64,000 nucleotides of DNA. Source: Sideroxydans sp. (GTDB lineage Bacteria; Pseudomonadota; Gammaproteobacteria; Burkholderiales; Gallionellaceae). Location: NCBI GenBank assembly GCA_027310725.1, contig DAIDAG010000040.1, positions 1-64,000 of the forward strand. The letters are read 5' to 3'. The position numbers were made by a program, and so were the translations under genes. Under the pieces are notes generated by a model. That model worked only from the letters and a program-made list of their open reading frames with translations, had not been told where the DNA came from and did no database searches. Shown here piece after piece: positions 28,589 to 47,741 of the stretch (position 1 is the stretch's first letter; each line of letters opens with the position of its first letter).

Positions 28589-29101
28589 TGATCACCGGGT
28601 ATCCAGGCGGCATGGCATCGATATCCCGGATCGGTCGCCTCGGGGAAGTTGGCGTAAAGCTTGGGAGAATATCCCATGGGCGAATTCGCTGACTGATCGC
28701 CAAACAATTGTGCCGATGGAATTCGGAATCTGAAAGCATGATTCGGGGCAGGCATTGCCGCGAAAGAATTGCAGGGTTCGCACGTGTTCCAAAGTTCCGG
28801 TTCCGCTCTTCCATACTCCCTTAATCCCCCGCATCTCCTGAAGAATCTTCCAGGAGATGGTCTTGCCCATCAATAACCCACAACCGGAAACACCGATCAT
28901 TTTTCGGGTGGCAAACACCGCCGAGTGCCCATTCGTTCCTTAAAAAACCGCTTCCATCTGTGTCGCCGGCAAACCGGACCGATTTCCATGCATACGCCAT
29001 ATGACGTATTCAGCTCGCGGTATGTATTTATCTAAACTGAGCCCGTATTTCGTTTGCACCCTGACCGATCAATTTTTTAATCAAACCCTAGGAGTACGAC
29101 A
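28589..29101. other. Gene-poor stretch upstream of the amide/urea island
   Basis: About 510 bases with no supported protein gene. It holds a bulged hairpin (arms CATCTCCTG at 28832-28840 and CAGGAGATG at 28851-28859) without a T-run, and at its right end the porin promoter with the 16-bp palindrome at 28993-29008. Confidence 0.5.
28993..29008. promoter_or_regulatory. 16-bp palindrome upstream of the porin gene
   Basis: TACGCCATATGACGTA is one base from the perfect palindrome TACGTCATATGACGTA. A second copy (13 of 16 identical) lies upstream of urtA at 30493-30508. The shared core ATGACGTATTCA extends beyond the palindrome at both places. A -10-like TATCTA begins 21 bp after the site. It is a candidate binding site for the cluster's LuxR-type response regulator. 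Confidence 0.5.
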
Positions 29102-30301
29102 ATGATACATAAATACTGCAGCAATTCGATCGTCGCCGGTAGACACTGGAAATCATTCATGGCGGGCTTTGCGGTACTGGCAAGTCTGACCGCTGCTTCG
29201 GCCAGCCATGCCGACCAGACCTTTCAAATGGGAGATGGCAAATCGTTGTCTTTGGGTTTTGGCCTGAGGAGCAGCTTTACCAGTTTGCAGGATGGTGCAC
29301 CCGACGGTGTATCGCGCTCAAAGACATTCAATGTCGACAACGCGCGTTTGTATATAAGCGGCCAGCTCAATGACATGATCAGGGGTACTTTGAATACCGA
29401 GCGGGATGCGGCGGGAAACATCGTTCTGATGGACGGGTTCACCGAGCTTGGGCTCAGCGACAATTTCAATGTCAGGGTCGGCAGATTGATACCGCCGTCC
29501 GACAGGTCGAACCTGGATGGTCCCTTCTATCTGAATGCCTGGGAGTTCCCCGGAGTGGTTTCGGCCTACCCCAATCTCGCGATAGGTCGCGACAACGGTA
29601 TGCTTGCCTGGGGTAAGCCGCTGGGAGGTGCGATCGTATACTCGGTCGGAACATTTACCGGACACAATGCCGTTGCGGGAGGTTCCAATGCTGCTGCCAA
29701 TCCGCTATATGCAGGCCGCCTGGCAATCAATTTCCTCGATCCGGAACCCGCACCGGCTTATTACACCGCGAGTACTTATTACGGATCCAAGGATATCCTG
29801 ACCGCCGCGATTGTCATGCAACATCAGAATGCCGGTGTAGGCTCATCTCCTGCAGCGCAGGGTAACTACAATTCCTGGAGTACCGACCTGTTGTTCGAGA
29901 AAAAGATCCCCGGCGATGGCGTGGTCACCGTGGAGGGTGCCTATTACAAGTATGGCCTGGGGGCGGTCGATTGCGGCTCGGGTGAGCCGGGCTCGGGTGT
30001 TTGTCCCGGAGGAACCAATGTGGGTGGTCTGGTCGCGGGGAAAGCTTATCTCGCGACCGTGGAATATATGTTCCCCGAACAAATCGGCGTTGGCAAGCTT
30101 CAGCCTTTCGTCAGACTCCAGAATTTCAATCGCGATGTGTCCCAGACGACAAACAAGCAAAGCGACATTGGCGTCAACTACGTCATGGATGGGCATAACG
30201 CACGCATCAGCGCGGTCTACTCGAAGCTGAGTGATACCCGGCTGGTTCCTTCCGCGGTCGATCGCAATCAATTCATAGTCGGTTACCAGTTCCAGTATTA
30301 A
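29102..30301 (+). CDS. Outer-membrane porin of the amide/urea cluster
   Basis: A 399-residue outer-membrane beta-barrel protein. The signal peptide cleaves after SHA (about residue 37). The mature chain shows alternating amphipathic strands (FNVRVGRLIPPSD, IVYSVGTFTG, ISAVYSKLSDTR) and ends in a terminal aromatic residue (GYQFQY), the usual signal for barrel assembly. It probably lets small amides or urea cross the outer membrane; this is inferred from the adjacent importer. CTAGGAG precedes the ATG. A terminator follows, so it is its own transcript. Confidence 0.82.
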   Translation: MIHKYCSNSIVAGRHWKSFMAGFAVLASLTAASASHADQTFQMGDGKSLSLGFGLRSSFTSLQDGAPDGVSRSKTFNVDNARLYISGQLNDMIRGTLNTERDAAGNIVLMDGFTELGLSDNFNVRVGRLIPPSDRSNLDGPFYLNAWEFPGVVSAYPNLAIGRDNGMLAWGKPLGGAIVYSVGTFTGHNAVAGGSNAAANPLYAGRLAINFLDPEPAPAYYTASTYYGSKDILTAAIVMQHQNAGVGSSPAAQGNYNSWSTDLLFEKKIPGDGVVTVEGAYYKYGLGAVDCGSGEPGSGVCPGGTNVGGLVAGKAYLATVEYMFPEQIGVGKLQPFVRLQNFNRDVSQTTNKQSDIGVNYVMDGHNARISAVYSKLSDTRLVPSAVDRNQFIVGYQFQY

Positions 30302-30329
30302 GAGCGATTCATGGTGGTGTTTCACTTCA

Positions 30330-30356
30330 AGCGGGGATATTCCCCGCTTTTTTTTT
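30330..30356 (+). terminator. Rho-independent terminator of the porin gene
   Basis: Stem AGCGGGGA / TCCCCGCT with a TAT loop, followed by nine T including the last stem base. It separates porin transcription from the ABC-importer operon. Confidence 0.9.
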
Positions 30357-30492
30357 GCGGCCGGAATAAGGCGGTGTGTTTCCTGGCGGCCGGTACAGCG
30401 AAAGGGCACGCCTGACGACGAACGCAAAGTCTTCCTGATTTTTGAAGTAAAGGCTTTGCGAGAGGCGTTGCCGCGTCAATGCGGAGGCCGTG

Positions 30493-30508
30493 TAAGTCAG
30501 ATGACGTA
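30493..30508. promoter_or_regulatory. 16-bp palindrome upstream of urtA
   Basis: TAAGTCAGATGACGTA, matching the porin site at 13 of 16 bases, followed by the same TTCA. It ends 106 bp before the urtA ATG (the porin site ends 93 bp before its ATG). A -10-like TTCTAT begins 21 bp after the site, the same offset as at the porin. Confidence 0.5.
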
Positions 30509-30614
30509 TTCATTGTCGGCCGCGGAAATTCTATTCTTCAACCATGGCTTGCAGGCGTATTTTTGATTCAAGCGTTGTTTGATTTTCCATACAAAACTTT
30601 AAGGAGTAATTGTC

Positions 30615-31904
30615 ATGTTAAGAAAAAAATCCAAGTCACCTACGTGGAATCGCGCAGGCCGTCCCGAAAATGTATCGTTCTTGCCTGTGCGCAAAACGGT
30701 GGCAAATGCAGTGGCTGCCACGCTGCTGATCGCGTTTGCCGGAAGCTCTTTCGGTGCAACACCGCCCACCTCTCAGGTCGACACGACACATCTGGCGGTC
30801 ACCGATACTGAAGTCATCGTGGGGCAGCTTCATTCGTCAACCGGAACCATGGCCATTTCGGAGACGGGGGCTATCGAAGCCGAGCGTCTGGCGATTGACC
30901 AGATCAACGCGATGGGCGGCGTCCTGGGAAGAAAGATAAAAGTCATTCAGGAGGATGGTGGCTCGGATTGGCCGACGTTTGCTGAGAAAGCAAAGAAGCT
31001 GCTGGAATCGGATCATGTGGCGGCGATATTCGGATGCTGGACATCGGCGTCGCGCAAGGCGGTACTTCCCGTTCTGGAACGCGATAACGGGCTCTTGTAC
31101 TACCCGACCTTTTATGAAGGACTGGAGCAATCCAAGAATGTCGTATACACGGGGCAAGAGGCCACGCAACAGGTGTTTGCCGGCCTGGATTGGGTAGCAA
31201 AAACAAAAGGGTCGAAGACTTATTACCTGATCGGCTCGGACTACATCTGGCCGCGCACAACCATGAAGCTGGCGCGCAAATACATTGAAACCGTATTGCA
31301 CGGGACCGTCGTGGGCGAAGAGTACGCCGCTCTCGGAAGCACCGATTTCGGCTCGACGATCAACAAGATCCGCCTGAAAAAGCCAGACGTGATTTATGCC
31401 GCCGTCGTGGGTGGATCGAACGTGTCCTGGTTCAAGCAACTCAAAGCCGCAGGCATCACCGGAAAAGATCACACATTGCTTACATTGTCAGTGACCGAGG
31501 ATGAGGCCAACGGCATCGGCGGCGAGAATCTGCTCGGATTCTATTCGGCAATGAAATACTTTCAGTCCCTCGACACACCCGGCAACAAGGAATTCGTGAA
31601 GAAGTTCAAGGCCAAGTGGGGAGCCGGTGCACCTATCGGCGACGTGACTCAGGCGGGTTACGAAGGTCCCTGGTTGTGGAAGGCTGCGGTTGAAAAGGCA
31701 GGCAGCTTTGATACGGACAAAGTCGTGAAGGCCGAGGAAAGCGGTCAGATCAGCTTCGATGCCCCGGAGGGAATGGTCTACCTGGAGAGCAATCACCACC
31801 TTAAGACCCGTTTGCGGATAGGCGAATGGCGCGCGGACGGTCAGGCCGACATTGTGTACACGTCTGACTACATCATGCCCAATCCTTTCCCCAAAGGTTA
31901 TTGA
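30615..31904 (+). CDS. urtA: Urea/short-chain amide ABC transporter, substrate-binding protein
   Basis: A 429-residue periplasmic binding protein of the UrtA/FmdD family. A long signal peptide ends near FGA-TP (about residue 48). The family core follows: VIVGQLHSSTGTMAISETG, AIFGCWTSASRKAVLPVLER, LLYYPTFYEGLEQSKNVVYTG and GGENLLGFYSAMKYF. It captures urea or, given the formamidase and amidase genes, short amides such as formamide. It heads the import operon; a hairpin after it (31914-31946) may keep its mRNA more abundant than the permease part. FmdD is the alternative name. Confidence 0.9.
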   Translation: MLRKKSKSPTWNRAGRPENVSFLPVRKTVANAVAATLLIAFAGSSFGATPPTSQVDTTHLAVTDTEVIVGQLHSSTGTMAISETGAIEAERLAIDQINAMGGVLGRKIKVIQEDGGSDWPTFAEKAKKLLESDHVAAIFGCWTSASRKAVLPVLERDNGLLYYPTFYEGLEQSKNVVYTGQEATQQVFAGLDWVAKTKGSKTYYLIGSDYIWPRTTMKLARKYIETVLHGTVVGEEYAALGSTDFGSTINKIRLKKPDVIYAAVVGGSNVSWFKQLKAAGITGKDHTLLTLSVTEDEANGIGGENLLGFYSAMKYFQSLDTPGNKEFVKKFKAKWGAGAPIGDVTQAGYEGPWLWKAAVEKAGSFDTDKVVKAEESGQISFDAPEGMVYLESNHHLKTRLRIGEWRADGQADIVYTSDYIMPNPFPKGY

Positions 31905-31913
31905 TCCGGCACC

Positions 31914-31946
31914 GGTCATCCGTCGTGCAGCGAACGATGGATGACC
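31914..31946. other. Intercistronic hairpin between urtA and urtB
   Basis: Arms GGTCATCC (31914-31921) and GGATGACC (31939-31946) with further pairing inside (TCGT/ACGA). There is no T-run. Hairpins after binding-protein genes of ABC operons commonly protect the upstream mRNA and allow excess binding protein. Confidence 0.55.
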
Positions 31947-31990
31947 GATCACGTCAGCAAAATCGAATTTAAGTCATTGGAGATATTGTA

Positions 31991-32914
31991 ATGGGCGGTT
32001 ATTCGATATCGGATTTATGGTCAATCGTGGTCATGCAGGGCTTCTCCGGCTTGAGCCTGTTCAGCGTGCTGTTGTTGATGGCGCTCGGCCTCGCGATCAT
32101 CTTCGGGCAAATGGGCGTCATCAATATGGCTCACGGTGAATTCATGACGATCGGGGCATACACGATCTATTTGTTCTCGAAAGTGACGGAACAATACTTC
32201 CCGGCTTTGATGCCCTACTATTTTGTGATCGCCATATTCGCGGCTTTCGGCATCGCTTTCGCAGCGGGATACCTGGTCGAATATCTGCTGATCAGGCATC
32301 TGTACAAACGTCCGCTGGATACGCTGCTGGCAACCTGGGGCCTGAGTCTGATCATGCAGCAGATATTCCGCACCGTGTTCGGGGCGCGCGAGGTCAGCGC
32401 AACCCTGCCGGACTGGCTGATGGGTTCATGGAAACCCACGCCGGATATCGACATACCTCTTAACGGCCTTTTCGTTATGGGCATCTCTGTCGTTGTGACT
32501 GCAGCAGTCATTCTCTTTCTCTACCGTTCCACCTGGGGGCTCAGGGTTCGCGCAACGACCCAGAACCGGGTCATGGCCGGCTCGGTCGGCATCAACACAA
32601 AGAAGATCGACCGGGTTACTTTTGCAGTCGGATGCGGAATAGCGGGCATCGCGGGTGCGACCTTCACCACGATCGCATCGACCGGCCCCACCAGCGGCTC
32701 CCTGTATATCGTCGACACATTTTTAGTGGTGGTGTTTGGCGGTGCGGGCAGCGTGGTCGGTACCGTCTCGTCGGCATTCTCGATTGCCCAGGCGCAATCG
32801 ATCCTGACATTTTTCCTGACCAATGCCATGGGCAAGGTGGTCACTTTGCTCACGATCATCATCATCCTGATGTTGCGACCCGAAGGCTTGTTCACCAGCA
32901 AGGTAAGAAAATAG
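31991..32914 (+). CDS. urtB: Urea/amide ABC transporter permease, first subunit
   Basis: A 307-residue inner-membrane permease of the branched-chain/urea ABC family, with about eight helices. Family motifs include LGLAIIFGQMGVINMAHGEF, TWGLSLIMQQIFRTVFGARE, RVRATTQNRVMAGSVGIN and VVFGGAGSVVGTVSSA. It pairs with UrtC to form the channel. It follows urtA by 86 bp and urtC by context; the length is that of the short form of UrtB, without the N-terminal extension some species have. Confidence 0.9.
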   Translation: MGGYSISDLWSIVVMQGFSGLSLFSVLLLMALGLAIIFGQMGVINMAHGEFMTIGAYTIYLFSKVTEQYFPALMPYYFVIAIFAAFGIAFAAGYLVEYLLIRHLYKRPLDTLLATWGLSLIMQQIFRTVFGAREVSATLPDWLMGSWKPTPDIDIPLNGLFVMGISVVVTAAVILFLYRSTWGLRVRATTQNRVMAGSVGINTKKIDRVTFAVGCGIAGIAGATFTTIASTGPTSGSLYIVDTFLVVVFGGAGSVVGTVSSAFSIAQAQSILTFFLTNAMGKVVTLLTIIIILMLRPEGLFTSKVRK

Positions 32915-32933
32915 ATTGAGTAAAGGAAAAACC

Positions 32934-34088
32934 ATGAATGCTTTCTACAGTAATTGGCTGGGCGGAAAAAAGGGTGCAATCGAACTTGCGATATTGGCGG
33001 CGTTCATCTTTATCGTAATGCCCCTGTGGCTGGACATCTTCCGACTGAATCTGGTCGGCAAATACCTGACTTACGCATTTGCGGCGGTGGGACTGGTGAT
33101 GGTCTGGGGCTATGGCGGGATTCTAAGTCTCGGTCAGGGCGTCTTCTTCGGTTTGGGCGGCTACTGCATGGCCATGTACCTCAAGCTGGAAGCCTCCGAT
33201 CCGGTAAGCACGGCCCATCAGACCACGCCCGGCATTCCGGATTTCATGGACTGGAATCAGGTGACTCAATTGCCCTTGTTCTGGGAACCGTTCCACAGCC
33301 TGATCTTTACGCTTGCTGCGGTCATCATGGTTCCGCTCGTTCTGGCCTATGTGATCAGCACCGCGATGTTCAAGAGACGGGTCGGCGGAGTCTATTTCTC
33401 GATCATTACCCAGGCAATCGCGGCGATCCTGACGATCCTTGTCGTGGGGCAGCAAGGCATGACCGGCGGAATCAACGGGATCACCGACCTCAAGACGCTG
33501 CACGGCTGGAACATAAACACGGAATCCGCGAAGTACATCCTGTATTACGTCAATGGCGCACTGTTGCTCGGCGTGATCATGCTGTGCCGCTTCATTCTTT
33601 CATCCAAGTTCGGACGTCTGCTGCTTGCGATGCGCGACAAGGAAGACCGGGTCAGATTTTCCGGCTATGACGTCGCCAACTTCAAGATTTTCACCTTCAG
33701 CATGGGGGCGATGATCTCGGCCATCGGCGGGGCCATGTTCATCCTGCAGGTCGGATTCATGTCTCCCTCGCTGATCGGCATTGTGCCTTCGATAGAGATG
33801 GTGATCTTTGCGGCGATCGGCGGGCGGGTCTCCCTGGTCGGGGCGGTCTATGGGACCCTGCTGGTCAATTACGGAAAATCGGCATTCTCGGAATCGTTCC
33901 CTTCGCTCTGGCTGTTGTTCATGGGCGCGCTGTTTATCGGCGTCGTCATGTTCTTTCCCAATGGCCTGGCTGGTTTATACGATGTCTATTTGAAGGGAAG
34001 GGTGGAAAGCCTGGCGGGGAAATTCAAAAAGAAAAATCCCCCGGCCATATTAACCCCGGCTAAAACGGAGCTTCAAAATGAGCTATGA
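32934..34088 (+). CDS. urtC: Urea/amide ABC transporter permease, second subunit
   Basis: A 384-residue inner-membrane permease with many helices and UrtC motifs: WGYGGILSLGQGVFFGLGGY, GVYFSIITQAIAAILTILVV, MRDKEDRVRFSGYDVANFK and AAIGGRVSLVGAVYGTLLVN. It forms the channel with UrtB. The ATG at 32934 is preceded by AAAGGA; the frame is open from a TTG at 32916. Its end overlaps the urtD start by 11 bases. Confidence 0.9.
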   Translation: MNAFYSNWLGGKKGAIELAILAAFIFIVMPLWLDIFRLNLVGKYLTYAFAAVGLVMVWGYGGILSLGQGVFFGLGGYCMAMYLKLEASDPVSTAHQTTPGIPDFMDWNQVTQLPLFWEPFHSLIFTLAAVIMVPLVLAYVISTAMFKRRVGGVYFSIITQAIAAILTILVVGQQGMTGGINGITDLKTLHGWNINTESAKYILYYVNGALLLGVIMLCRFILSSKFGRLLLAMRDKEDRVRFSGYDVANFKIFTFSMGAMISAIGGAMFILQVGFMSPSLIGIVPSIEMVIFAAIGGRVSLVGAVYGTLLVNYGKSAFSESFPSLWLLFMGALFIGVVMFFPNGLAGLYDVYLKGRVESLAGKFKKKNPPAILTPAKTELQNEL

Positions 34089-34818
34089 ATTCGCACTCAC
34101 GGTTGAAGACCTGACAGTTTCGTTCGACGGTTTCAAGGCGGTGGACGGCCTGAATCTGTACGTGGAAAAGAATGAGCTCAGAGTGATCATCGGACCGAAC
34201 GGCGCCGGGAAGACCACGGTACTGGATCTCATTTGCGGGAAGACCAGGGCGACGGGCGGTTCCATTCAGTTCAACGGCATTGAGCTCACCAAATTCCCCG
34301 AATACAAGATCGTCCAGGCGGGCGTTGGCCGAAAGTTCCAGACGCCTTCGATTTATGAAAACTTGTCGGTACTTGAGAATCTCGAAATCTCATTCCCTAG
34401 AGGGCGTAGCGTTTTTGGCTCATTGATGTTCAAACGAACCCAGGATGTGACGGACCGGATTCTGGAGATCGCTGAAACAATTTTCCTTTCCGAACAATTG
34501 AACGTGCAAGCCGGTTTGCTTAGCCATGGCCAAAAGCAATGGCTGGAGATCGGGATGCTGCTCATACAGGACCCGGAGTTGCTGATGCTGGATGAGCCCG
34601 TGGCCGGAATGAGCGTTTCCGAGCGCGAGAAGACCGCCGAACTGCTCAACAAGATATCGCAGGGACGGTCCTTGATCGTAATCGAACACGACATGGAATT
34701 CGTGAAGCGCATCGCGCACAAGGTCACTGTGCTGCATCAGGGCAAGGTGCTGGCTGAGGGCAATATGGACGCGGTGCAAAACAATCCGAAAGTCATTGAA
34801 GTCTATCTTGGGCACTGA
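34078..34818 (+). CDS. urtD: Urea/amide ABC transporter ATPase, first subunit
   Basis: A 246-residue ABC ATPase: Walker A GPNGAGKTT, the UrtD-type signature LLSHGQKQWLEIGMLL, Walker B LLMLDEP and switch His (VIEHDM). It energises the UrtBC channel. The unusual LSHGQ signature (instead of LSGGQ) is typical of UrtD. It overlaps urtC by 11 bases, so translation is probably coupled. Confidence 0.92.
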   Translation: MSYEFALTVEDLTVSFDGFKAVDGLNLYVEKNELRVIIGPNGAGKTTVLDLICGKTRATGGSIQFNGIELTKFPEYKIVQAGVGRKFQTPSIYENLSVLENLEISFPRGRSVFGSLMFKRTQDVTDRILEIAETIFLSEQLNVQAGLLSHGQKQWLEIGMLLIQDPELLMLDEPVAGMSVSEREKTAELLNKISQGRSLIVIEHDMEFVKRIAHKVTVLHQGKVLAEGNMDAVQNNPKVIEVYLGH

Positions 34819-34825
34819 GGGAAAT

Positions 34826-35527
34826 ATGTCGAATCCTATATTTAGCGTTAGCGGTGTCGATTCTGGCTACGGTCAGAGCCAGGTGATACACGAACTGAAT
34901 CTTGACGTCGGCAAGAAGGAGATCGTTGCGGTGATGGGCCGCAACGGCATGGGCAAGACCACGCTATTCAAGACCTTGATGGGGATCATCCCGTCGATTC
35001 GTGGCAGCATTTCCGTGGATGGAAAGCAACTGGACGGACTCGAACCTTACCAGCGGGTTCAGCACGGCCTGGCATACGTGCCCCAGGGCCGGATGATTTT
35101 TTCCAACATGACCGTTGTCGAGAATATCCAGACCGGCCTCCCGGCTTCGGCGCAGGGCCGCGTTCCGGAAGAGTTGTATGCGCTTTTTCCTGTCCTGTTC
35201 GATATGCGAACGCGCAAGGGCGGGAATCTGTCCGGCGGGCAGCAGCAGCAACTGGCGATCGCGCGGGCTCTCGCCACCAACCCCAAGGTACTTCTGCTGG
35301 ATGAGCCGACCGAGGGCATCCAGCCGTCCATCATCAAGGATATCGCAAAGAGCCTGAAGGAGATCAGGGATCTGCGCGACCTAACGATCATCGTATCCGA
35401 GCAAGTGCTCAGTTTCACTCTGGATATTGCCGACCGCTTCTTTGTGATCGACAAGGGCAAATTCGTTTACGAGGACCAGCGTGCCAATGTGGACGAAAAG
35501 ACAATCAGCCAATATCTGTCAATTTGA
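34826..35527 (+). CDS. urtE: Urea/amide ABC transporter ATPase, second subunit
   Basis: A 233-residue ABC ATPase: Walker A GRNGMGKTT, signature NLSGGQQQQLAIARAL, Walker B VLLLDEPTEGIQPS, and the D-loop region. It is the partner of UrtD. The ATG at 34826 follows GAGGG by four bases and lies eight bases after the urtD stop; an upstream in-frame start inside urtD is less likely. It ends the five-gene importer operon; fmdA begins 58 bp later and may be co-transcribed. Confidence 0.92.
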   Translation: MSNPIFSVSGVDSGYGQSQVIHELNLDVGKKEIVAVMGRNGMGKTTLFKTLMGIIPSIRGSISVDGKQLDGLEPYQRVQHGLAYVPQGRMIFSNMTVVENIQTGLPASAQGRVPEELYALFPVLFDMRTRKGGNLSGGQQQQLAIARALATNPKVLLLDEPTEGIQPSIIKDIAKSLKEIRDLRDLTIIVSEQVLSFTLDIADRFFVIDKGKFVYEDQRANVDEKTISQYLSI

Positions 35528-36821: not shown

Positions 36822-37151
36822 ATGCCTATCTATGACTACCAATGCCTCGATTGCGGGCCGTTCGAGGCGATGCGGCGGATCGCCGAACGCGATGCACCGG
36901 CGAATTGTCCGCAGTGCGGTTCGTACGCGGAGCGGATCCTGATTTCTGCCCCGTTCCTGGCCGATATGGCGAGTGATGTACGCCATGCCATGGCAACCAA
37001 CGAAAGAGCCAGCCACGAACCGAAACTGTCGGCGTCGCACGGTCATCCGCGGGGGTGCGGCTGTTGCAAGACACCGGCAAAGGCGAACGCATCGGCACCC
37101 GCTGTCCCGAAGTCGTTCCCCAACAAGCGGCCTTGGATGATCAGTCACTAG
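36822..37151 (+). CDS. fmdB: FmdB-type zinc-ribbon protein
   Basis: A 109-residue protein. The N-terminal FmdB zinc ribbon has YQCLDCG and CPQCG knuckles; the C-terminal half has a further CGCC (residues about 85-88) and is Ala/Pro/Ser-rich. FmdB is encoded with formamidase in methylotrophs and was called a regulator, but its role is unproven. It starts three bases after fmdA, so the two are co-translated. Confidence 0.88.
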   Translation: MPIYDYQCLDCGPFEAMRRIAERDAPANCPQCGSYAERILISAPFLADMASDVRHAMATNERASHEPKLSASHGHPRGCGCCKTPAKANASAPAVPKSFPNKRPWMISH

Positions 37152-38310: not shown

Positions 38311-39156
38311 ATGCTTGCATCCATAGAAACCAAAGAGCGTTGGCTGGCCAGACTGGAGCTCGAGTTTGAGCGCAGAGGCGATGCCACCATTTTGGTGCGG
38401 AGAGCCCACATCGGCCCGCTTCGGGTGCAGAAAGCGCTCTATCCCGAAGGCCAGGAGATTTGCCACGCTTTGTTATTGCATCCGCCGGCGGGTATCGCCG
38501 GAGGGGATGAGCTGGAGATTGCAGCAGCCGTAAAGGAGGGGGCTCACGTTTTGTTGACGACACCGGGCGCCGGAAAGTGGTATCGCAGCGCGGGCTCCAG
38601 GGCATCGCAGCGGCTGGATTTCGAAGTGGGTACAGGGGGCGTGCTGGAATGGCTTCCCCAGGAAAGCATCGTTTTCGACGGCGCATTGGCGGACATGCAG
38701 ATGCACGTGTCGCTGGCGGAAAAGGCCTGCTTCATCGGATGGGAAATTCTGTGTCTGGGGCGGCGTGCATCCGGTGAACGTTTCTCTTCCGGGGAGATGC
38801 GCGTGTCGACCCGGATCGAGCGGGACGGCAAGCCGGTATGGCTGGAACGCGGCATGCTGGAAGGCGGGTCGGGATTGTTGCAGTCACCCGCGGGGCTTGC
38901 AGGGTATAGCGTCGGTGCGACGCTTTGGGCAACTGGAACCGGGCTGGCTCCCGAGCTTCTGGCGGACTGCAGAAAACAGATTCCGGCAGAGGAGGGGGCG
39001 CTCCATGGCTTGACGCTACTGCCCGATGTGCTGGTGGCGCGCTACCTTGGGCACTCCTCCGAGGCTGCCAAGGACTGGATGATCGCGCTATGGCAAATAT
39101 TGCGTCCGGCCCTGGCTGGACGTGAAGCGCTGATACCGCGTATCTGGAACACCTGA
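38311..39156 (+). CDS. ureD: Urease accessory protein UreD
   Basis: A 281-residue chaperone needed, with UreF and UreG, to deliver nickel to urease. Family segments: [66 protein letters not shown] and [14 protein letters not shown]. It opens the urease operon 84 bp after amiE. The start at 38311 has a twin ATGCTTGCA repeat at 38291, so the exact start is less certain. Confidence 0.92.
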
Positions 39157-39166
39157 TGGAGGAAAG

Positions 39167-39469
39167 ATGGAGCTGACACCGCGCGAGAAAGACAAACTTC
39201 TGATTTTCACTGCCAGCCTGCTTGCCGAAAGGCGCAGGGCGCGCGGTCTCAAACTCAACTATCCCGAGGCCGTTGCGCTGATCACAGCGGCAGTCATGGA
39301 AGGCGCGCGCGACGGTCAGACAGTCGCCCAGCTGATGAGTTATGGCAGCACGTTGTTACGGCGGGACGAGGTGATGGAAGGTGTGCCTGAATTGATCCCG
39401 GATATCCAGGTCGAGGCGACCTTCCCGGACGGCACCAAGCTGGTCACTGTGCACAATCCGATCGTATAG
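39167..39469 (+). CDS. ureA: Urease gamma subunit
   Basis: A 100-residue small structural subunit of nickel urease: [40 protein letters not shown] and [20 protein letters not shown]. It starts 10 bases after ureD with GGAGG. It assembles with UreB and UreC into the (abc)3 trimer. Confidence 0.96.
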
Positions 39470-39477
39470 GAGCGGCG

Positions 39478-39783
39478 ATGATACCGGGTGAATACAAGAT
39501 AGAAGCAGGCGAGATCGAAATGAATGTCGGCCGCAGGGTGCAGAGGCTTGCAGTTGCAAATACCGGCGACAGGCCGATCCAGGTCGGTTCGCACTACCAT
39601 TTTTTTGAGACCAATGACGCACTCGCGTTCGAGCGCGATCTGGCACGGGGGATGCGGCTGGACATCGCCGCCGGAACGGCAGTGCGTTTTGAGCCGGGAC
39701 AGGTGCGCACCGTCGAGCTGGTGGAGCTCGCAGGCGAACGCAGGATTTACGGCTTCCAGGGCCGGATCATGGGAAGTTTGTGA
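39478..39783 (+). CDS. ureB: Urease beta subunit
   Basis: A 101-residue subunit: [60 protein letters not shown]. It starts eight bases after ureA. Separate gamma and beta genes match the usual bacterial urease, not the fused form of Helicobacter. Confidence 0.96.
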
Positions 39784-39846
39784 AAGTGGTTACGCTGGAA
39801 AAGGACGAGGAAATGCAAATATCGACGGTTACCCGGACATGATGCC

Positions 39847-41553
39847 ATGGCAGTAAAAATCTCCCGGCAGGCTTATGCAGAGATGTTCGGCCCCACGGCG
39901 GGGGATCGCGTACGTCTTGCGGACACCGAACTGTGGCTGGAAGTCGAAAAGGACTTCACGATCTACGGCGAGGAAGTGAAATTCGGCGGCGGCAAAGTGA
40001 TCAGGGATGGCATGGGGCAAAGCCAGCTTCGCGCATGCGACGTGGCCGACACGGTCATCACCAACGCGCTGATCGTCGACGCCGTCACCGGCATCGTCAA
40101 GGCCGATCTCGGCATCAAGGAAGGCCGCATCTGGGCGATCGGCAAGGCGGGCAACCCGGATATCCAGCCGGGTGTGAACATTCCCATCGGGGCCGGCACG
40201 GAGATCATCGCGGGGGAAGGCATGATCGTCACCGCAGGCGGGATCGACAGCCATATCCATTTCATCTGCCCGCAACAGATCGACGAAGCATTGACCTCCG
40301 GTGTCACCACCATGCTGGGAGGCGGTACAGGACCTGCCACCGGGACTTACGCCACCACCTGCACGCCGGGTCCGTGGCACATCCATTCCATGTTGCAGGC
40401 TGCAGATGCCTTTCCGATGAACCTGGGCTTTCTGGGCAAGGGTAATGTATCCCTGCCGGATCCGGCCAGGGAACAGGTCGAAGCGGGCGCGATCGGTCTC
40501 AAGCTGCACGAGGATTGGGGAACTACTCCAGCCGCAATCGACAATTGCCTGACCGTCGCGGATGAAATGGACGTGCAGGTGGCAATCCATACAGACACGC
40601 TCAACGAATCCGGTTTTGTCGAGACGACGCTGCAGGCCTTCAAGGGCCGCGCCATCCATACCTTTCATACCGAAGGGGCGGGCGGAGGACACGCGCCCGA
40701 CATCATCAGGGCCGTGGGGGAAATGAACGTATTGCCATCCTCCACCAATCCGACACGGCCTTACACGGTGAACACCATCGACGAGCATCTCGACATGCTC
40801 ATGGTATGTCACCATCTCGACGCATCGATTGCGGAGGATGTGGCCTTTGCCGAGTCGCGTATCCGGCGCGAGACGATCGCAGCCGAAGATATCCTGCACG
40901 ATCTGGGCGCGTTTTCCATGATGTCGTCCGACTCGCAGGCGATGGGGCGGGTCGGCGAGGTCGTCATCCGCACCTGGCAGACGGCGCACAAGATGAAAGT
41001 GCAGCGCGGCGCGCTGAAGGAGGACAGTGCGCGCAACGACAATTTCAGGATCAAGCGCTACATCGCCAAGTACACCATCAACCCGGCAATCACACACGGT
41101 ATCAGCCATGTGGTCGGTTCGGTAGAAGTCGGCAAACTGGCCGACCTGGTACTTTGGAAACCCGCCTTCTTCGGCGTCAAGCCGAGTCTCATCCTCAAGG
41201 GAGGCATGATCGCAGCGGCCGCCATGGGCGATCCCAATGCCTCCATCCCGACACCGCAACCCGTGCACTACCGTCCCATGTTCGGCAGCTTCGGTTCCGC
41301 CCTGAAAAAATCCTTCACTTTCGTTTCCGCGGCGGCACTGGAAAACGAGGCGGTCAGGGCATTGGGCCTCGCAAAGACATTGGTCGCGGTAAAGAACACC
41401 CGCAAGGTGAGCAAGCTGGACATGCTGCACAACAGCGCCATGCCGCACATCGATGTGGACACCGAAACCTATGCCGTGCGTGCCGACGGGGAGTTGCTGG
41501 TGTGCGAACCGGCAAGCATCCTGCCGATGGCCCAGAGATATTTTCTGTTCTAG
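39847..41553 (+). CDS. ureC: Urease alpha (catalytic) subunit
   Basis: A 568-residue catalytic subunit hydrolysing urea to ammonia and carbamate. Nickel ligands and the carbamylated lysine are present: [10 protein letters not shown]219 in [34 protein letters not shown] and the flap region MVCHHLD. Length matches family. A 63-base gap after ureB carries no other gene. A 539-residue open frame lies antisense to it, but it is a shadow of the GC-rich coding strand. Confidence 0.97.
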
Positions 41554-41555
41554 CC

Positions 41556-42065
41556 ATGTTGCTCATAGAAAAAAAAGCGTTGGAGGGTGCCGTGGCGACA
41601 GAGCATCTGGTGCTGCCTTTCGAGTTGCGCTGCAAGAGCCGGTTGCGTACTCGGCTTGAGAGCGGGGAGGAGGGGGGACTGTTTCTGGAGCGCGGCACCG
41701 TGCTGCGCGGCGGGGATCTCCTGCAGGCGGATGACGGCCGCATCGTCCTGATCATGGCGGCACTCGAATCGGTGATGGAAGTTCGTAGCGACAACGCATT
41801 GGCGCTCGCCAGGGCAGCTTATCACCTTGGAAACCGGCATGTTGCGGTGCAATTGCAACCGGGTCTGCTGCGCTTCGCAAAAGATCACGTCCTGGGAGAG
41901 ATGGTCAGCGGCCTGGGGCTCGATGTCGTCGAGACGCTGGCCCCCTTCGAGCCGGAGAGCGGCGCCTATGGCGGTCACGGCGGCCATGCCCATGGGCACA
42001 GCGCCGACGGCGAGGGAAGGGGCGCGCGCATCCACGATATGATCCTGAAGCAACGTGCGTCATGA
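41556..42065 (+). CDS. ureE: Urease nickel-metallochaperone UreE
   Basis: A 169-residue nickel carrier. An N-terminal peptide-binding domain (about residues 1-75) is followed by the metal-binding domain (about 80-150, [20 protein letters not shown] and HVLGEMV). A His-rich tail follows ([11 protein letters not shown]) that binds extra nickel. It begins two bases after the ureC stop and overlaps ureF by four bases. Confidence 0.93.
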
Positions 42066-42730
42066 GTGCCGCATTGATACGCCTGCTGCAGCTTGCCAGC
42101 CCGACCTTGCCGGTCGGCGCCTATACCTACTCGCAGGGACTGGAATGGGCGGTGGAGACGGCTTCCGTGAATAGCGAAGCTTCGGCCCTGGCCTGGATCG
42201 GCGACTGCCTCGATTTCGGCAGCGGGCGATTCGAGGCGGTTTACCTGACGCATATGATCGCGTCGTGGCGAGGAGAAGACATGCACCTGCTCGCCGAACT
42301 GGATGCGGATTTCGTTGCCAGCCGCGAAACCGCCGAATTGCGTGCCGAGACCCTGCAAATGGGATATTCGCTGTCGCGTCTGCTTGTAGACCTCGGAGAT
42401 TTTCCGACGCGTCACCTTGCTGCCTTTACCGCCCCCAGCTTTCCGCTCGCCTGGAGTTGCGCGGCGGCGGCCTGGTCCATCCCGGTCGGGGACGCTGTTT
42501 CCGGCTATCTGTGGGCATGGGCCGAGAATCAAGTCATGGCGGCAGTCAAAGCGGTGCCGTTCGGACAAACGGCGGGGCAGCGTCTGCTGCTCCAGTTGGG
42601 GCGTCGCCTGCACCTGCTTGCGGTCGAGGCGCAGCAGACGCCGATCGAGCTTGCCTGCAATTACCTGCCGGCGTTTTCCATCGCCAGCAGCCGTCACGAA
42701 ACCCAATACACGCGATTATTCAGATCATGA
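42062..42730 (+). CDS. ureF: Urease accessory protein UreF
   Basis: A 222-residue, mostly helical accessory protein: [40 protein letters not shown] and the C-terminal [21 protein letters not shown]. It forms the UreDFG complex and controls the UreG GTPase. It overlaps ureE by four bases and ureG by four bases. Confidence 0.94.
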
Positions 42731-43338
42731 CCCAGCGACTACAACCCTTGCGCGTCGGTATCGGCGGACCGGTCGGTTCCGGCAAGACGGCCCTGACCCT
42801 CGCCCTGTGTCTTGCCTTGCGCGACACCTACAACATTGCCGTCATCACCAACGACATCTATACGGAAGAAGATGCGCAGTTCCTGGTGCGCAACGAAGCG
42901 CTTACGCCGGATCGCATCATCGGGGTCGAGACCGGCGGCTGTCCGCACACTGCCATCCGCGAGGATGCGAGCATCAATCTGGAAGCCGTGGATCGCCTCA
43001 ACAAACGCTTTCCCGGCCTGGATATCATCTTTGTGGAAAGCGGTGGCGACAATCTTGCCGCCACCTTCAGCCCAGAACTGTCCGACCTCACGATCTACGT
43101 CATCGATGTCGCCGCCGGTGAAAAGATCCCGCGCAAGGGCGGTCCGGGAATCACCAAATCGGATCTGCTGGTGATCAACAAGATCGACCTGGCACCGATG
43201 GTGGGGGCATCGCTGGAAGTCATGGATCGGGACGCGGGCAGAATGCGCGGCAAACGGCCTTTCATTTTCTCGAACATGAAGATCGGAACCGGGCTCGGGG
43301 AAATCATCGGCTTTATCCGGCAGGAGGGCATGTTGTGA
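42727..43338 (+). CDS. ureG: Urease accessory GTPase UreG
   Basis: A 203-residue SIMIBI GTPase for nickel delivery: P-loop [45 protein letters not shown] with the nickel-binding [12 protein letters not shown] and NKIDLAP. It ends the urease operon; the permease-kinase gene begins 43 bp later. Confidence 0.97.
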
Positions 43339-43381: not shown

Positions 43382-46300
43382 ATGAATGCGAACAGCGACA
43401 GTCAGGTCGGCAAAGATGGTGCCGTTCAGAATGTGTTCAAGGTGCGCAGAGACTACAACACCTGGGTATCCAATGAGACGCTGGAAGACTATGCGTTGCG
43501 CTTCACCCCCCGCAGTTCCCGCAAGTGGCCGGAGTGGCAGGTTGCCAACACCGCATTCAGCTCTGCCTCATTCCTGGTGCTCGAGGCGATCGGGGCCACG
43601 CTTCTTGTCGACTACGGGTTCGTCAATGCGGCACTGGCCATTTTTGCGACCGGACTGATCATCTTTCTGGTAAGCCTGCCTCTGAGTCGCTACTCGGCTC
43701 TTTATGGTCTTGATATGGATCTCCTGACTCGCGGCTCCGGCTTCGGATACCTAGGTTCCACGATCACTTCACTCATTTATGCCGCATTCACTTTTATTTT
43801 TTTCGCGCTCGAAGCGGCCATCATGGCCTCCGCCCTCAAGCTCGCCTTCAATATTCCGATGGTCTGGGGCTACCTGATCTGTGCCATCGTGGTGATCCCC
43901 CTTGTGACCAGAGGCATTACGGCGATCAGTCGCCTGCAAACCCTGACCCAGCCGATCTGGCTGATCATGTTGTGCCTGCCCTACCTGTTTCTGCTGGTAT
44001 ACAGGCCGCAGGATTTTGCCGGATTTTTCGGTTATGGCGGTCACAATGGGATCGACTTTGATATTCGCCTTTTCAGTGCGGCCGTCACCGTCGCCATGGC
44101 AATCATCGCCCAGATGGGAGAGCAGGCGGATTACCTCCGCTTCATGCCGGAACCCACCTCGATGAACCGTCGCCGCTGGTTGATCGGTGTGCTGGTCGGA
44201 GGAACGGGATGGCTGGTGCTGAGCGTGGTCAAAATGCTGGGTGGAGCCCTGCTGGCATTTCTTGCCATCCAGCATGGCTTTCCGGAAGCGCTGGCGGTGA
44301 ATCCGACTCAGATGTATCTCGCGGCCTACAGTAATTATGTGTTTCCCGATATAGGCTGGGCGGTCGCCGCGACGGCGACGTTCGTGATCGTTTCGCAATT
44401 GAAGATCAATGTCACCAATGCCTATGCCGGTTCTCTGGCCTGGTCCAATTTCTTTTCCCGCCTTACCCACAGCCACCCGGGACGCGTAGTCTGGGTCGTC
44501 TTCAATACGCTGATCGCGCTCATGCTGATGGAACTTGACCTGCTGCAGGTGATGGGCCGGGTTCTGGGTCTTTACTCCAACGTGGCGGTGGCATGGATGA
44601 TGTCCGTAGTTGCGGATCTGGTGATCAACAAGCCGCTTGGATTATCCCCTCGGGGTATCGAATTTCGCCGCGCCTATCTTTACGATATCAATCCCGTAGG
44701 CTTCGGTACGATGGGCATTGCATCCGCATTGTCGATATCGGTCTATCTGGGAGTGTTCGGCCAGGCAGCGCAGCCTTTCGCCATCTTCATCTCGCTCGGC
44801 TTGCCGCTCGTTTTGTCGCCGCTGTTCGCATGGCTCACCGGAGGCCGTTATTATATTGCCCGCCATCCCCAACCTCTCAGCGCCGCTCCCGGTGCAACAG
44901 CGCATACATGCTGCATCTGCGGCACGGATTTCGAGGCGGAGGATATGTCCAATTGCCCGGCATATCAGGGAAGCATCTGCTCCCTGTGTTGTACCCTGGA
45001 TGCACGCTGCCATGACCTCTGTAAACCCCAGGCCCGCCTGACGGAGCAATGGGCCGCCTTCCTGGGGCGATTCTTGCCCGCCTCATTAAAGCCCTATCTG
45101 GAAGCCGGACTCGGCCAGTATATGTTGTTGATGGCCGGATTCATCTCGCTGCTCGGATTGCTGATCGGCCTGGTCTACTACCAGGAAAGCCTGACCCTGA
45201 ACGAAGGCGATGCCGTTCTGCTGCATCATTTGCAGGACATTTTTCTCCGGCTCGCGGCAGGCCTGCTCTTGGTATCCGGCGTCATCGCCTGGTGGATGGT
45301 ACTTGCCAACAAAAGCCGGCGGGTTGCCCAGGAAGAGGCCAACCATCAGACGCAACTCCTGCTGCAGGAGATCGACTCCCATCATCGTACGGACCAGCTT
45401 CTGCAGCAGGCGAAGTTGACCGCCGATCATGCAAACCAGGCCAAGAGCCGCTACATCATGGCGATCAGCCATGAACTGCGTACCCCGCTGAATAGCATAC
45501 TCGGCTATGCCCAGATTCTCGATGGCGACGAGGCCATTCCTGCCAATCGCAGACAGGCAGTCAGCGTGATCCGCAGAAGCGGCGATCACCTGTTGTCGCT
45601 GATCGAAGGCACGCTGGACATCGCGCGGATTGAAGGAGGAAAAGTGAAACTGGACATCAAACCCCTGTGTTTTCCCGATTTCGTACAACAGATCGTGGAC
45701 ATGTTCGAACTTCAGGCGCACAACAAGGGCATCGATTTCGGCTACCGGACCACGGGCGATCTGCCGATTCTGGTGCGGGCGGATGCGAGCAGGCTGCGTC
45801 AGATCCTTATCAATATACTGGGCAACGCCGTGAAGTTCACCACTCGCGGCGGCGTGATCTGCAATCTCAAATTCCAGAGCGATATGGCCACATTCGAGAT
45901 CGAGGACACGGGGCCGGGGATTGCGCCGGAAGAGATGGAGCGCATCTTCGAGCCGTTTGCACGAGGCAGCGCAAACTATATCGGCTCCACAGGGGGCACA
46001 GGGCTCGGGCTTACCATCGCAAAAATGCTCACGGACCTGATGGGCGGCGAGCTGACCGTGGAAAGCTCGCCGGGGAAAGGCTGTTGCTTCCGGATACGGC
46101 TTTTCCTGCCGCACATCCAATCGGTTCAGGCTGTCCAGAGCGGTTTCAGGATCCAGTATATCGGCTATGTAGGCGCACGCCGTCGCATCATGATCGTAGA
46201 CAATGAGAAAACGGATCGGGACCTGCTGGTCAGCATACTGGAGCCTCTCGGGTTTTACCTGGTCCAGGTCGCCTCCGGCCAGGAATGCCTGGATCTGGTT

Positions 46301-46813
46301 CCCAGCTTCTGTCCCCATCTGATATTCATGGATATCGCCATGCCGGGAATGAACGGCTGGGAGACCATACGGCGTATCCGTGAAGCCGGATTCATCGACA
46401 GCAAGATCGCGATCATTTCGGCCAACGTCTTTGAAAAGAATGCGGACAATGATGTGGGGATATCGTCCGGGGACTTCATCACCAAGCCGGTCAGCGTGAA
46501 TGAGCTGATAGACTGGATTGGACGGCATCTCGATCTGGAATGGGAGACCGTCGAGGTACCCGCTCTCGTGGGCGTTTCTTCCGCCCCGAAGCAGGCACCG
46601 TATCCTCCCGGAGAACACTTGCGCGGCCTGAACGAACAGATCGAGCTCGGTTATGTACGGGGGATACTGAACAAACTGGAAGAGATCGAGAAGATCGATT
46701 CCATTTTCAGAGAATTTGTCGACAGGATGCGCCAACTGGCAAATCAGTTCCAGTTCAACACCATGCAGGAAATCTTGCGCCAGGGACTGGAGGGCAATGA
46801 TGGGACATCTTGA
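43382..46813 (+). CDS. NCS1-type permease / hybrid histidine kinase fusion
   Basis: An 1143-residue protein. Residues about 50-490 are an NCS1-like (cytosine/allantoin-type) multi-helix permease: WQVANTAFSSASFLVLEAIG, LTRGSGFGYLGSTITSLIYA, TRGITAISRLQTLTQPIWL. C510-C548 form a cysteine cluster (CCIC, CPAY, CSLCC, CHDLC), possibly metal-binding. Two helices (about 580-600 and 625-645) lead to a histidine kinase (H697 in AISHELRTPLNS, NAVKFT, DTGPG, GGTGLGLTIAKML) and a receiver with D984 (IFMDIAMPGM). The tail has no HPt-type histidine. The known precedent is CbrA, an SSS-transporter kinase. It probably senses or carries an amide, urea or similar compound. The gene overlaps the next by 14 bases. 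Confidence 0.9.
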   Translation: MNANSDSQVGKDGAVQNVFKVRRDYNTWVSNETLEDYALRFTPRSSRKWPEWQVANTAFSSASFLVLEAIGATLLVDYGFVNAALAIFATGLIIFLVSLPLSRYSALYGLDMDLLTRGSGFGYLGSTITSLIYAAFTFIFFALEAAIMASALKLAFNIPMVWGYLICAIVVIPLVTRGITAISRLQTLTQPIWLIMLCLPYLFLLVYRPQDFAGFFGYGGHNGIDFDIRLFSAAVTVAMAIIAQMGEQADYLRFMPEPTSMNRRRWLIGVLVGGTGWLVLSVVKMLGGALLAFLAIQHGFPEALAVNPTQMYLAAYSNYVFPDIGWAVAATATFVIVSQLKINVTNAYAGSLAWSNFFSRLTHSHPGRVVWVVFNTLIALMLMELDLLQVMGRVLGLYSNVAVAWMMSVVADLVINKPLGLSPRGIEFRRAYLYDINPVGFGTMGIASALSISVYLGVFGQAAQPFAIFISLGLPLVLSPLFAWLTGGRYYIARHPQPLSAAPGATAHTCCICGTDFEAEDMSNCPAYQGSICSLCCTLDARCHDLCKPQARLTEQWAAFLGRFLPASLKPYLEAGLGQYMLLMAGFISLLGLLIGLVYYQESLTLNEGDAVLLHHLQDIFLRLAAGLLLVSGVIAWWMVLANKSRRVAQEEANHQTQLLLQEIDSHHRTDQLLQQAKLTADHANQAKSRYIMAISHELRTPLNSILGYAQILDGDEAIPANRRQAVSVIRRSGDHLLSLIEGTLDIARIEGGKVKLDIKPLCFPDFVQQIVDMFELQAHNKGIDFGYRTTGDLPILVRADASRLRQILINILGNAVKFTTRGGVICNLKFQSDMATFEIEDTGPGIAPEEMERIFEPFARGSANYIGSTGGTGLGLTIAKMLTDLMGGELTVESSPGKGCCFRIRLFLPHIQSVQAVQSGFRIQYIGYVGARRRIMIVDNEKTDRDLLVSILEPLGFYLVQVASGQECLDLVPSFCPHLIFMDIAMPGMNGWETIRRIREAGFIDSKIAIISANVFEKNADNDVGISSGDFITKPVSVNELIDWIGRHLDLEWETVEVPALVGVSSAPKQAPYPPGEHLRGLNEQIELGYVRGILNKLEEIEKIDSIFREFVDRMRQLANQFQFNTMQEILRQGLEGNDGTS

Positions 46814-47741
46814 CCGTGTAAGCAGGGATGTCGTCCTGATCGTGGATGACGTACCGGAAAATCTTTCATTGCTCCACGATGCGCTGGAAGAGGCAGGCTA
46901 TACGGTCCTCGTTGCCACCAATGGCGAAGATGCCTTGCAGCGGGCGCGCACGAGCGGACCCGACGTGATCCTTCTGGATGCGCTCATGCCGGGCATGGAT
47001 GGTTTTGAAGTGGCGCAAAGAATGAAGACCGACTTTGCCACCCAGCATATCCCCATCGTCTTCATGACAGGGCTCACTGAAACCGAACATGTGGTGGCGG
47101 CCTTCGCCAGCGGCGGTGCCGACTACGTCACCAAGCCCATCAAGCCGCGGGAGGTGCTGGTTCGTATTGCCGCACACATGCAAAATGCCCGCCAGATAAA
47201 ACAGGCCCGCACCGTGCTGGATGATTACGGACAGGCTACCGTTGTCGTGCGCGAGACCGATGGCCGCATGATCTGGCAGACGCCCAGGGCGCGCAAACTG
47301 CTCCTGGAATATTTCGACGTCGATAACGAACATGCGCAGCCGTATCTGTTGCCCTGGATAAAGAAAGCGCAACAGGCAGTCCTGGATGGCAGTGAACCTC
47401 CGATAGTCGTGGTCAAGGACTCCAGAAGGCTGCTCGCCAGTCTTCAGCCCCTCGGTAGCCAAGGGCACGATGGAGAGTTGCTGATCGTACTCAGGGAAGA
47501 AAGTCATGCTTCTGTTATCGAGGCACTTGTTTCGACTTTTAGTTTGACTACCCGTGAAGCCGAGGTGCTTTATTGGGTCATACATGGCAAGACCAATCGC
47601 GATATAGGCGACATCCTGGAAAGCAGTCACCGGACGGTCAACAAACACCTGGAGCACGTATTCGAGAAACTCGGTGTTGAAACCCGTACCGCCGCTTCAG
47701 CCGTGGCCATGCAGAAAGTCCGCATCCTGTCGTCAGGTTAG
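46800..47741 (+). CDS. LuxR-type response regulator partner of the permease-kinase
   Basis: A 313-residue response regulator. The N-terminal receiver has D16/D17, the phosphorylation site D60 (ILLDALMPGMDG) and K in YVTKPIKPRE. A middle PAS-like region (about 140-235) is unusual. The C-terminal LuxR helix-turn-helix is SLTTREAEVLYWVIHGKTNR, DIGDILESSHRTVNKHLEHV. The ATG at 46800 follows GGAGG by six bases; 46797 is also an ATG. Overlap with the kinase gene makes it the cognate regulator; targets are inferred to be the porin and urtA promoters. Confidence 0.88.
   Translation: MGHLDRVSRDVVLIVDDVPENLSLLHDALEEAGYTVLVATNGEDALQRARTSGPDVILLDALMPGMDGFEVAQRMKTDFATQHIPIVFMTGLTETEHVVAAFASGGADYVTKPIKPREVLVRIAAHMQNARQIKQARTVLDDYGQATVVVRETDGRMIWQTPRARKLLLEYFDVDNEHAQPYLLPWIKKAQQAVLDGSEPPIVVVKDSRRLLASLQPLGSQGHDGELLIVLREESHASVIEALVSTFSLTTREAEVLYWVIHGKTNRDIGDILESSHRTVNKHLEHVFEKLGVETRTAASAVAMQKVRILSSG

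Follow-up and report, generated by a model that had tools for sequence, protein, structure and literature searches.

The subject of this analysis is a sensor protein encoded at 43382..46813 on the plus strand of a 64,000-nucleotide stretch of Sideroxydans sp. (Gallionellaceae; GenBank assembly GCA_027310725.1, contig DAIDAG010000040.1, positions 1 to 64,000), referred to below as the window. The protein (1143 aa, ATG start) joins an NCS1-type permease module to a hybrid histidine kinase, and is paired with a response regulator of 313 aa with a receiver and a LuxR-type helix-turn-helix (46800..47741, plus strand, ATG 46800). The fusion is real, widespread and, within the open-licence literature searched, undescribed. 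It is likely a receptor kinase made from an NCS1 permease, sensing urea or a short-chain amide and driving its own gene island via the LuxR-type regulator at a palindrome. The architecture, the linkage to urea and amide genes, the palindrome at both island promoters, the exchange of outputs and the free relatives standing with urease or formamidase genes are established at the level of sequence.

Architecture of the sensor and kinship of its permease module

Within one frame, the sensor runs from a divergent NCS1-type permease through an eight-cysteine domain and a two-helix hairpin to a hybrid histidine kinase. A single open frame of 1143 residues was read from the ATG at 43382 to 46813, and the regulator ATG at 46800 lies within the end of the kinase gene (14-base overlap), both as the initial annotation had described. 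Pfam placed HisKA at 45443-45640 (residues 688-753), HATPase_c at 45782-46108 (residues 801-909) and the receiver, Response_reg, at 46187-46513 (residues 936-1044), all on the plus strand. The kinase histidine H697 and the receiver aspartate D984, also named in that annotation, were invariant in 85/85 rows of a sensor alignment made of the window and 84 of 87 loci (the remaining three, whose frames are short, were omitted). These 87 loci are the best 80 of at least 562 relatives in the contig collection and 7 further fusion loci; L010 and L018 are one contig, which leaves 86 distinct loci. The annotated D60 and LuxR helix-turn-helix of the regulator were likewise recovered, residue 60 read from ATG 46800 being Asp and Pfam giving Response_reg plus GerE/LuxR. 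All parts of a hybrid histidine kinase with a cognate regulator are present (HisKA, HATPase_c, receiver, intact regulator Asp). In the tail after the receiver (kinase residues 1045-1143), G1090, Y1091 and G1094 were invariant among 8 aligned proteins; as the tail has no invariant His in these proteins, a histidine phosphotransfer domain was not recognised there, nor by Pfam.

The permease module spans 43529..44851 (plus strand, residues about 50-490). Sensor residues 1-680 gave no Pfam match; with PF02133, the window protein had no match at E ≤ 1 and none of 8 family members matched at E ≤ 10. Permease-only searches of Pfam, NCBIfam and PDB sequences named no transporter, apart from 2/8 members touching the NCBIfam cytosine permease model. 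Comparison of the family profile with an NCS1 set in hhalign gave 98.95% probability (E 9.7e-18, 384 columns). This set comprised CodB and 11 rows from loci (rows had to exceed 380 residues, and two of those kept, L210 and L217, appear out of frame), and was used because the comparison with CodB singly was weak (20.5%); L128 alone gave 97.8%. An AlphaFold2 model of residues 1-680 (mean pLDDT 77.7, pTM 0.77), which had been suggested as a check, gave Mhp1 and CodB as the nearest PDB folds: they filled Foldseek ranks 1-5 (E 3.1e-7 to 2.8e-6), a small lead over other LeuT folds, which began at 7.7e-6. A free relative, L123, 43% identical to the window permease, passes the PF02133 cut-off (31.8 vs 23.5 bits). 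By profile-profile comparison, model fold and L123, the module is identified as a distant NCS1 clade, too divergent for Pfam, and the annotated NCS1-like permease at residues about 50-490 stands, though PF02133 fails.

In CodB, cytosine lies between Trp108 and Phe204, and sodium is held by Thr278 and Thr279 (PMC9379551; papers are cited throughout from the excerpts available). By profile alignment alone, at 17% identity, Trp108 is equivalent to Phe140, Phe204 to Ile241 or Ile242, and Thr278/Thr279 to Lys341/Ile342; the aromatic substrate pair and side-chain sodium ligands of CodB and Mhp1 are not kept in this alignment. As some NCS1 carriers are not sodium-driven (PMC13390362), the missing sodium ligands limit the mechanism and not the NCS1 kinship. 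Lys341, Asn343, Gln244, Glu247 and Gln248 were invariant across 72 urease-linked and 27 amidase-linked sensors, and Glu144 was kept in 98/99 of them; Glu68, in transmembrane helix 1 (TM1), was found in 72/72 and 27/27, plus four odd ones. Rows labelled both or none were omitted from these counts, and the amidase-linked rows leave out L013, L122, L184 and L192 (the last two tabulated apart). The initial annotation had held that loss of NCS1 substrate-binding residues across homologues would speak against a transporter-sensor: by alignment the CodB aromatic pair and sodium ligands are indeed gone, but conserved replacements are shared with the free permeases of urease and formamidase operons described below. 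A code separating the specificity of urease-linked from amidase-linked sensors was sought and rejected, no best-separating column being a predicted pocket residue with a clear switch.

Two sets of weak matches were set aside. One is a 446-aa permease in L017 (4412-5749; hhalign 97.4% to the family), which fails PF02133, carries Arg in place of the sensor Lys341 and stands beside hydantoinase/oxoprolinase-like frames (named from reading). The other comprises AGCS-like carriers in L129-L131, their identity likewise taken from reading the sequences.

Linkage to urea and amide genes, free permeases and other outputs

A profile of the eight-cysteine domain gave 57 matches in 52/398 Pseudomonadota genomes, the window's own included, all in frames of 894-1365 residues. 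Forty-one of the matches lay outside the window's order; 40 were fetched, and the permease was present in 40/40. Among 99 relatives besides the window's genome, 7 carried the full fusion and 1 a weak free match; at those 7 fusion loci the regulator was adjacent and urt genes lay within 20 kb (7/7). Genes of the ure, urt, fmdA or amiE type were found within about 10 kb in 69/87 loci (68/86 distinct), and urt or fmdA genes in 38/40 loci from other orders or classes, the two misses being contig-edge stretches. Since linkage was scored mostly by tblastn with proteins of the window, nitrogen genes of other kinds may have escaped notice. Homologues are linked to urt/fmd/ure genes and not scattered, scattering having been named beforehand as a ground against the proposal. 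A class-wide sample of 369 genomes yielded 17 with the module (E < 1e-100), one of which, G378, had the free permease only. Urease (E < 1e-40) was found in 15/17 genomes with the module vs 70/352 without (Fisher p 9e-9), and the urtA family at the same threshold in 13/17 vs 84/352 (Fisher p 1e-5).

In a tree built from 133 permease domains, the nearest to the window were L010/L018 (one contig, Sideroxydans, Gallionellaceae). Three separate urease-linked groups (L182 with L185, L196, L197 and L200; L168 with L175; L016 with L164 and L166) lie inside a mostly amidase-linked clade, some forks between them being poorly supported, and the tie to urea or amide genes therefore seems to have been remade more than once. 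The tree labels depend on flank length and the counts are rough, loci labelled 'none' counting as changes and inflating the number of urease-label changes (13). The recurrent clusters named around the 87 loci were kinase, regulator, urease, urt, HupE/UreJ, fmdA and amiE. The HupE/UreJ gene near the sensor formed a cluster in 26/87 loci (for example L036, 8703-9188) and lies between ureA and ureB in L036 and L045. The permease module was also matched by 526 plasmid records, 342 of them Klebsiella, the labels listed including ATP-binding protein and ArcB; in L249 (OW848998.1), a Klebsiella plasmid stretch, the pair and the genes for a urt-type transporter and a formamidase point away from each other.

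Kinase-less permeases of the same kind bear on the ligand. Seventeen such loci were collected (14 from two families, the other three being selected plasmid matches), and 16 of them stand with urease or formamidase genes. A first class has nine loci (seven of one genus, two plasmid; one a fragment), eight in urease operons and L252 beside fmdA-fmdB; the sensor pair was not found in the stretch at any of the nine. A second class has seven loci, all with fmdA, amiE and the sensor-regulator pair, the permease being divergent from the sensor in six and just after it in L251. The remaining locus, L263, has none of urease, formamidase, amiE or sensor-pair neighbours. In TM1, Asp67 with Gln or Phe at 68 was found in 15/16 free permeases read, L263 having neither acid; pocket residues agree between free permeases and sensors. 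Since the free forms stand with urease or formamidase genes in 16/17 loci, urea or a short amide is the probable ligand.

A rival reading, under which the pair owes its link to the island to position and senses a different nitrogen compound (such as a ureide, cytosine or guanidine), is very unlikely. In its favour, NCS1 carriers mostly handle ring compounds, one carries metformin (PMC13390362), and of three free relatives NCBI labels two allantoin permease and one hypothetical protein. The two so labelled, L250 and L252, stand in urease/formamidase neighbourhoods and are probably misnamed. Against it, the aromatic pair that grips ring substrates is absent by alignment, and no purine, allantoin or other ureide gene was recognised among the neighbour clusters of the 87 loci, most of the small clusters being without an identification. 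The initial annotation had proposed an NCS1-based transporter-sensor for an amide, urea or ureide; linkage and free permeases favour the first two, and the ureide part is not supported, no gene of that kind being recognised among the clusters that could be named.

The module is also found on other outputs. In G236 the same permease-cysteine-hairpin module is joined to PAS-GGDEF-EAL (L126) and to PAS-PAS-kinase-receiver (L127), and in L184 and L192, from another class and beside fmdA, the match to the window kinase part is weak. Swapped between outputs, the module behaves like a sensor. It was considered whether the permease is instead an ordinary carrier, with the kinase responding to a cue from inside the cell (nitrogen state or breakdown products), as may hold for CbrA. 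The permease is conserved like the kinase core (mean identity to the window 0.69 vs 0.65), and CbrA, itself a histidine transporter, shows no significant effect of histidine on its activities (PMC7096432). Against this, a urt ABC transporter is already present in many loci, TM1 positions 67-68 are occupied differently in sensors and in free permeases, which would fit a change of function, and the quite different outputs in L126 and L127 suit a sensor. We regard this explanation as unlikely.

The eight-cysteine domain lies at 44909..45022 (plus strand, residues 510-547), and its eight Cys are invariant in 85/85 rows. The window cysteines are 510, 511, 513, 525, 533, 536, 537, 543 and 547, of which C511 is not conserved; a Cys cluster had been placed at C510-C548, and it is present but ends at 547, residue 548 not being Cys. 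Residues 507-547 were modelled by AlphaFold2, at modest confidence, as short strands leading into a pair of short helices. Queried against solved structures, the domain returned weak matches only, which included zinc fingers and a snake toxin (best E 0.0093). The two-helix hairpin follows at 45080..45418 (plus strand, residues 567-605 and 611-679, from the AlphaFold2 secondary structure), with hydropathy peaks at residues 580-598 and 624-642, its second helix continuing toward the kinase.

All eight Cys are kept in 7/7 free permeases of the fmdA/amiE-linked class. In the urease-operon class, Cys 510, 513, 533 and 536 are kept and the other four (525, 537, 543 and 547) lost in 9/9, a joint loss which suggests two metal sites, one dispensable. 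By these patterns the domain goes with the permease and not with the kinase, and its role is likely structural, with two putative metal sites accompanying the permease. We judge it highly improbable that the domain is itself the actual sensor, responding to redox state or to a metal (zinc, nickel or iron), with the permease as a mere anchor. Urease requires nickel, and the invariance of the eight Cys would suit such a role, but the full set is kept in amidase-linked loci with no urease in view and in the kinase-less permeases beside fmdA/amiE, and the loss of the same four Cys in the other free class suits two structural metal sites. A nickel-sensing role was rated low on the first of these grounds.

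Predicted operator palindrome and layout of the island

In relatives, the stretches between the sensor gene and a divergent urtA share the palindrome TACGTCAnnTGACGTA. An operator matrix was seeded by hand from this palindrome and trained on 33 divergent promoters, near relatives included and the window excluded; 31/33 training promoters exceed the 99% shuffle level (in-sample). The matrix 99% level was also exceeded in 10/50 sensor-ureA stretches, vs 2% of shuffles. The window's best match (18.5; 28990-29011) lies before the porin gene, where operator 1 is predicted at 28993..29008 (TACGCCATATGACGTA, no strand), and the third best (12.4; 30490-30511) before urtA, where operator 2 is predicted at 30493..30508 (TAAGTCAGATGACGTA, no strand). 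Three matches of at least 12.3 were found in the window vs 0.01 expected under a first-order Markov model, with a simulated maximum of 13.3 in 100 trials. The second-best match in the window (13.1, at 8708) is a strong operator-like palindrome, 8711-8726, far from the island.

The window's own genome assembly (3.03 Mb, 65% complete) contains a single exact match to the pattern TACGYVANNTBRCGTA, the porin site, and seven more sites at one mismatch, the urtA site included; since a reversed control pattern matched 29 times with one mismatch or none, the weaker pattern matches mean little genome-wide. Across 117 non-training loci, 32 matches of at least 12.3 were obtained vs 0.1 for column-permuted matrices, and 31 of the 32 fall close to the beginning of a urtA, permease, porin, fmdA or amiE gene, counting positions no more than 450 bp from its extrapolated start and allowing for up to 120 bp beyond it. 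The palindrome stands before both porin and urtA in L265 (urtA 12.0) and L266 and before the porin in L267, and L087 (Methylobacillus) has the pair plus an operator match. The four loci in which the module has other outputs (L126, L127, L184, L192) gave no match of at least 12.3, and neither did any of the 10 free-permease loci without the pair. Two identical palindrome copies occur in L026 about 1.8 kb apart (15576 and 17352), one before urtA and the other in the gap that separates urtA from the regulator gene. The proposal that the sensor controls the island gains from these results, the shared palindrome marking the porin and urtA promoters.

The plus strand carries the whole island, in the order porin, urtABCDE, fmdA, fmdB, amidase, ureDABCEFG, with the sensor-regulator pair last; the pair was correctly placed at the island end, the other island genes being upstream on the same strand. 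The first gene (29102..30301, plus strand, from its open reading frame) encodes a porin-like outer-membrane protein, a name given by analogy with the fmd cluster (PMC10781810); the protein has no Pfam match at E ≤ 0.001, and the porin occupies the same position in L265, L266 and L267. Downstream of it lies a terminator-like stem (30329..30349, plus strand; 9-pair stem, then a T run), weak on its own since a scan of the stretch gave 4 such sites vs 2.9 expected. A urtABCDE-type ABC transporter for urea or short-chain amides extends over 30615..35527 on the plus strand (frames 30615-31904, 31991-32914, 32916-34088, 34078-34818 and 34796-35527), with Pfam matches to Peripla_BP_5, BPD_transp_2 (two) and ABC_tran (two). 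It is followed on the same strand by the formamidase/acetamidase gene fmdA (35586-36818; Pfam FmdA_AmdA), the zinc-ribbon gene fmdB (36822-37151; position and a tblastn match to a gene annotated FmdB family), an aliphatic amidase (37187-38227; Pfam CN_hydrolase) and ureD, ureA, ureB, ureC, ureE, ureF and ureG (38311..43338). Of the urease genes, ureD was named by Pfam UreD and ureG by Pfam CobW/HypB/UreG; the other five were named from their order and tblastn matches to annotated L250 urease genes. A transposase-like gene with HTH_38 and an rve integrase core stands upstream of the island (21869-23038).

Proposed mechanism, related systems and meaning

A mechanism is proposed in which we infer the ligand, the binding site, the signal path, the metal, the binding of the regulator to the palindrome and the loss of transport. 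The ligand, urea or a short-chain amide (formamide, acetamide), would reach the permease module from outside and be held in the pocket matching the CodB cytosine site. The resulting change would be relayed to the kinase helices by the eight-cysteine domain and the hairpin that follows it, and phosphate would pass by way of His697, Asp984 and the regulator Asp60, all present by sequence; the phosphorylated regulator would then bind TACGTCAnnTGACGTA. With amides or urea present, the porin, ABC transporter, amidases, urease and the sensor-regulator pair itself would be made.

Several observations weigh against this mechanism. No urea or amide gene was found in the flank of 18/87 loci (several flanks being short); among the genomes of these 18, ureC is matched in 16 (as a fragment in two) and urtA, at E ≤ 1e-24, in 15. 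G236, which carries the module twice with other outputs, has no urease or urtA match. No strong operator match was found in 37/38 sensor loci with urease but no urtA/fmdA in view, nor was an operator match found in 13/34 non-training loci with a urtA promoter in view. The low identity behind the CodB equivalences counts on the same side, as does the behaviour of CbrA towards histidine, by which a fused permease need not be a ligand switch (PMC7096432).

The nearest kind among known systems is that of the SLC5/STAC kinases (CbrA, CrbS, RpuS; PMC13022988, PMC9100948, PMC7096432), which have in common with the sensor a LeuT-fold transporter fused to a histidine kinase and the control of nutrient use. 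The present permease is NCS1 and not SLC5, and the linker is an eight-cysteine domain with a two-helix hairpin and not a STAC bundle. NCS1 structures outrank SLC5 in Foldseek, and no SLC5 domain appeared in the 4 Pfam rows or in the 25/154 NCBIfam rows viewed; nor was a four-helix STAC bundle seen, the residues modelled (at modest confidence) as strands and two short helices with eight Cys standing in its place. In CbrA, a lysine in TM6 fills the Na2 site (PMC13022988), whereas Lys341 here aligns with a CodB sodium ligand in TM8 of CodB. CodB and Mhp1 share fold and profile with the sensor permease, but in the sensor their pocket residues are replaced and a kinase is fused. MetT, the metformin carrier (PMC13390362), is also an NCS1 protein for a non-ring nitrogen compound, but is free of any kinase and is likened here by description only.

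For amidase genes, AmiC/AmiR is likewise a dedicated regulatory system, in which AmiC is the ligand sensor and AmiR an RNA-binding antiterminator (PMC13209695); here a LuxR-type DNA-binding domain and a kinase partner are found instead, and ANTAR was not among the 11 Pfam rows at E ≤ 1, the regulator matching GerE/LuxR. The fmdCABDEF cluster of Methylophilus methylotrophus, with porin, formamidase and uptake genes, is induced by formamide and urea, which a sensor of both would fit; the excerpt of that paper names only a putative positive regulator (PMC10781810), and the sensor type described here is a candidate for the missing sensor. A histidine kinase with a receiver/LuxR regulator has been listed beside urt genes in Dechloromonas aromatica (1131 and 308 aa; PMC2907700) and, with fmdA close by, in Ectopseudomonas guguanensis (PMC13296017). 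Both look like the same gene pair, likened by description only, and the permease module is not mentioned in the excerpts of these papers.

A broader reading, to which we give an even chance, is of an undescribed NCS1 clade devoted to urea and short-chain amides. Its free members, some of them now labelled allantoin permease, would be a new kind of uptake carrier for urea and amides, and its fused members receptors in which the pocket is retained, the TM1 acid has moved from 67 to 68 and transport is thereby uncoupled, with a two-metal Cys domain and exchangeable outputs: a hybrid kinase whose LuxR partner acts at the TACGTCAnnTGACGTA operator, a different kinase, or GGDEF-EAL.

No description of an NCS1-kinase fusion, of its operator or of a urea/amide NCS1 clade was found in the open-licence literature that was searched. 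If the proposal is true, these would be, to our knowledge, the first urea/amide receptor kinases. The fusion adds a second transporter family to the few known transporter-kinase fusions, and the free carriers and fused sensors offer a natural comparison. For the fmd cluster induced by formamide and urea, for which no ligand-sensing kinase is named in the excerpt of PMC10781810, a candidate sensor, regulator and operator can now be tested. Proteins now named ATP-binding protein, ArcB or allantoin permease would also be given a likely role.

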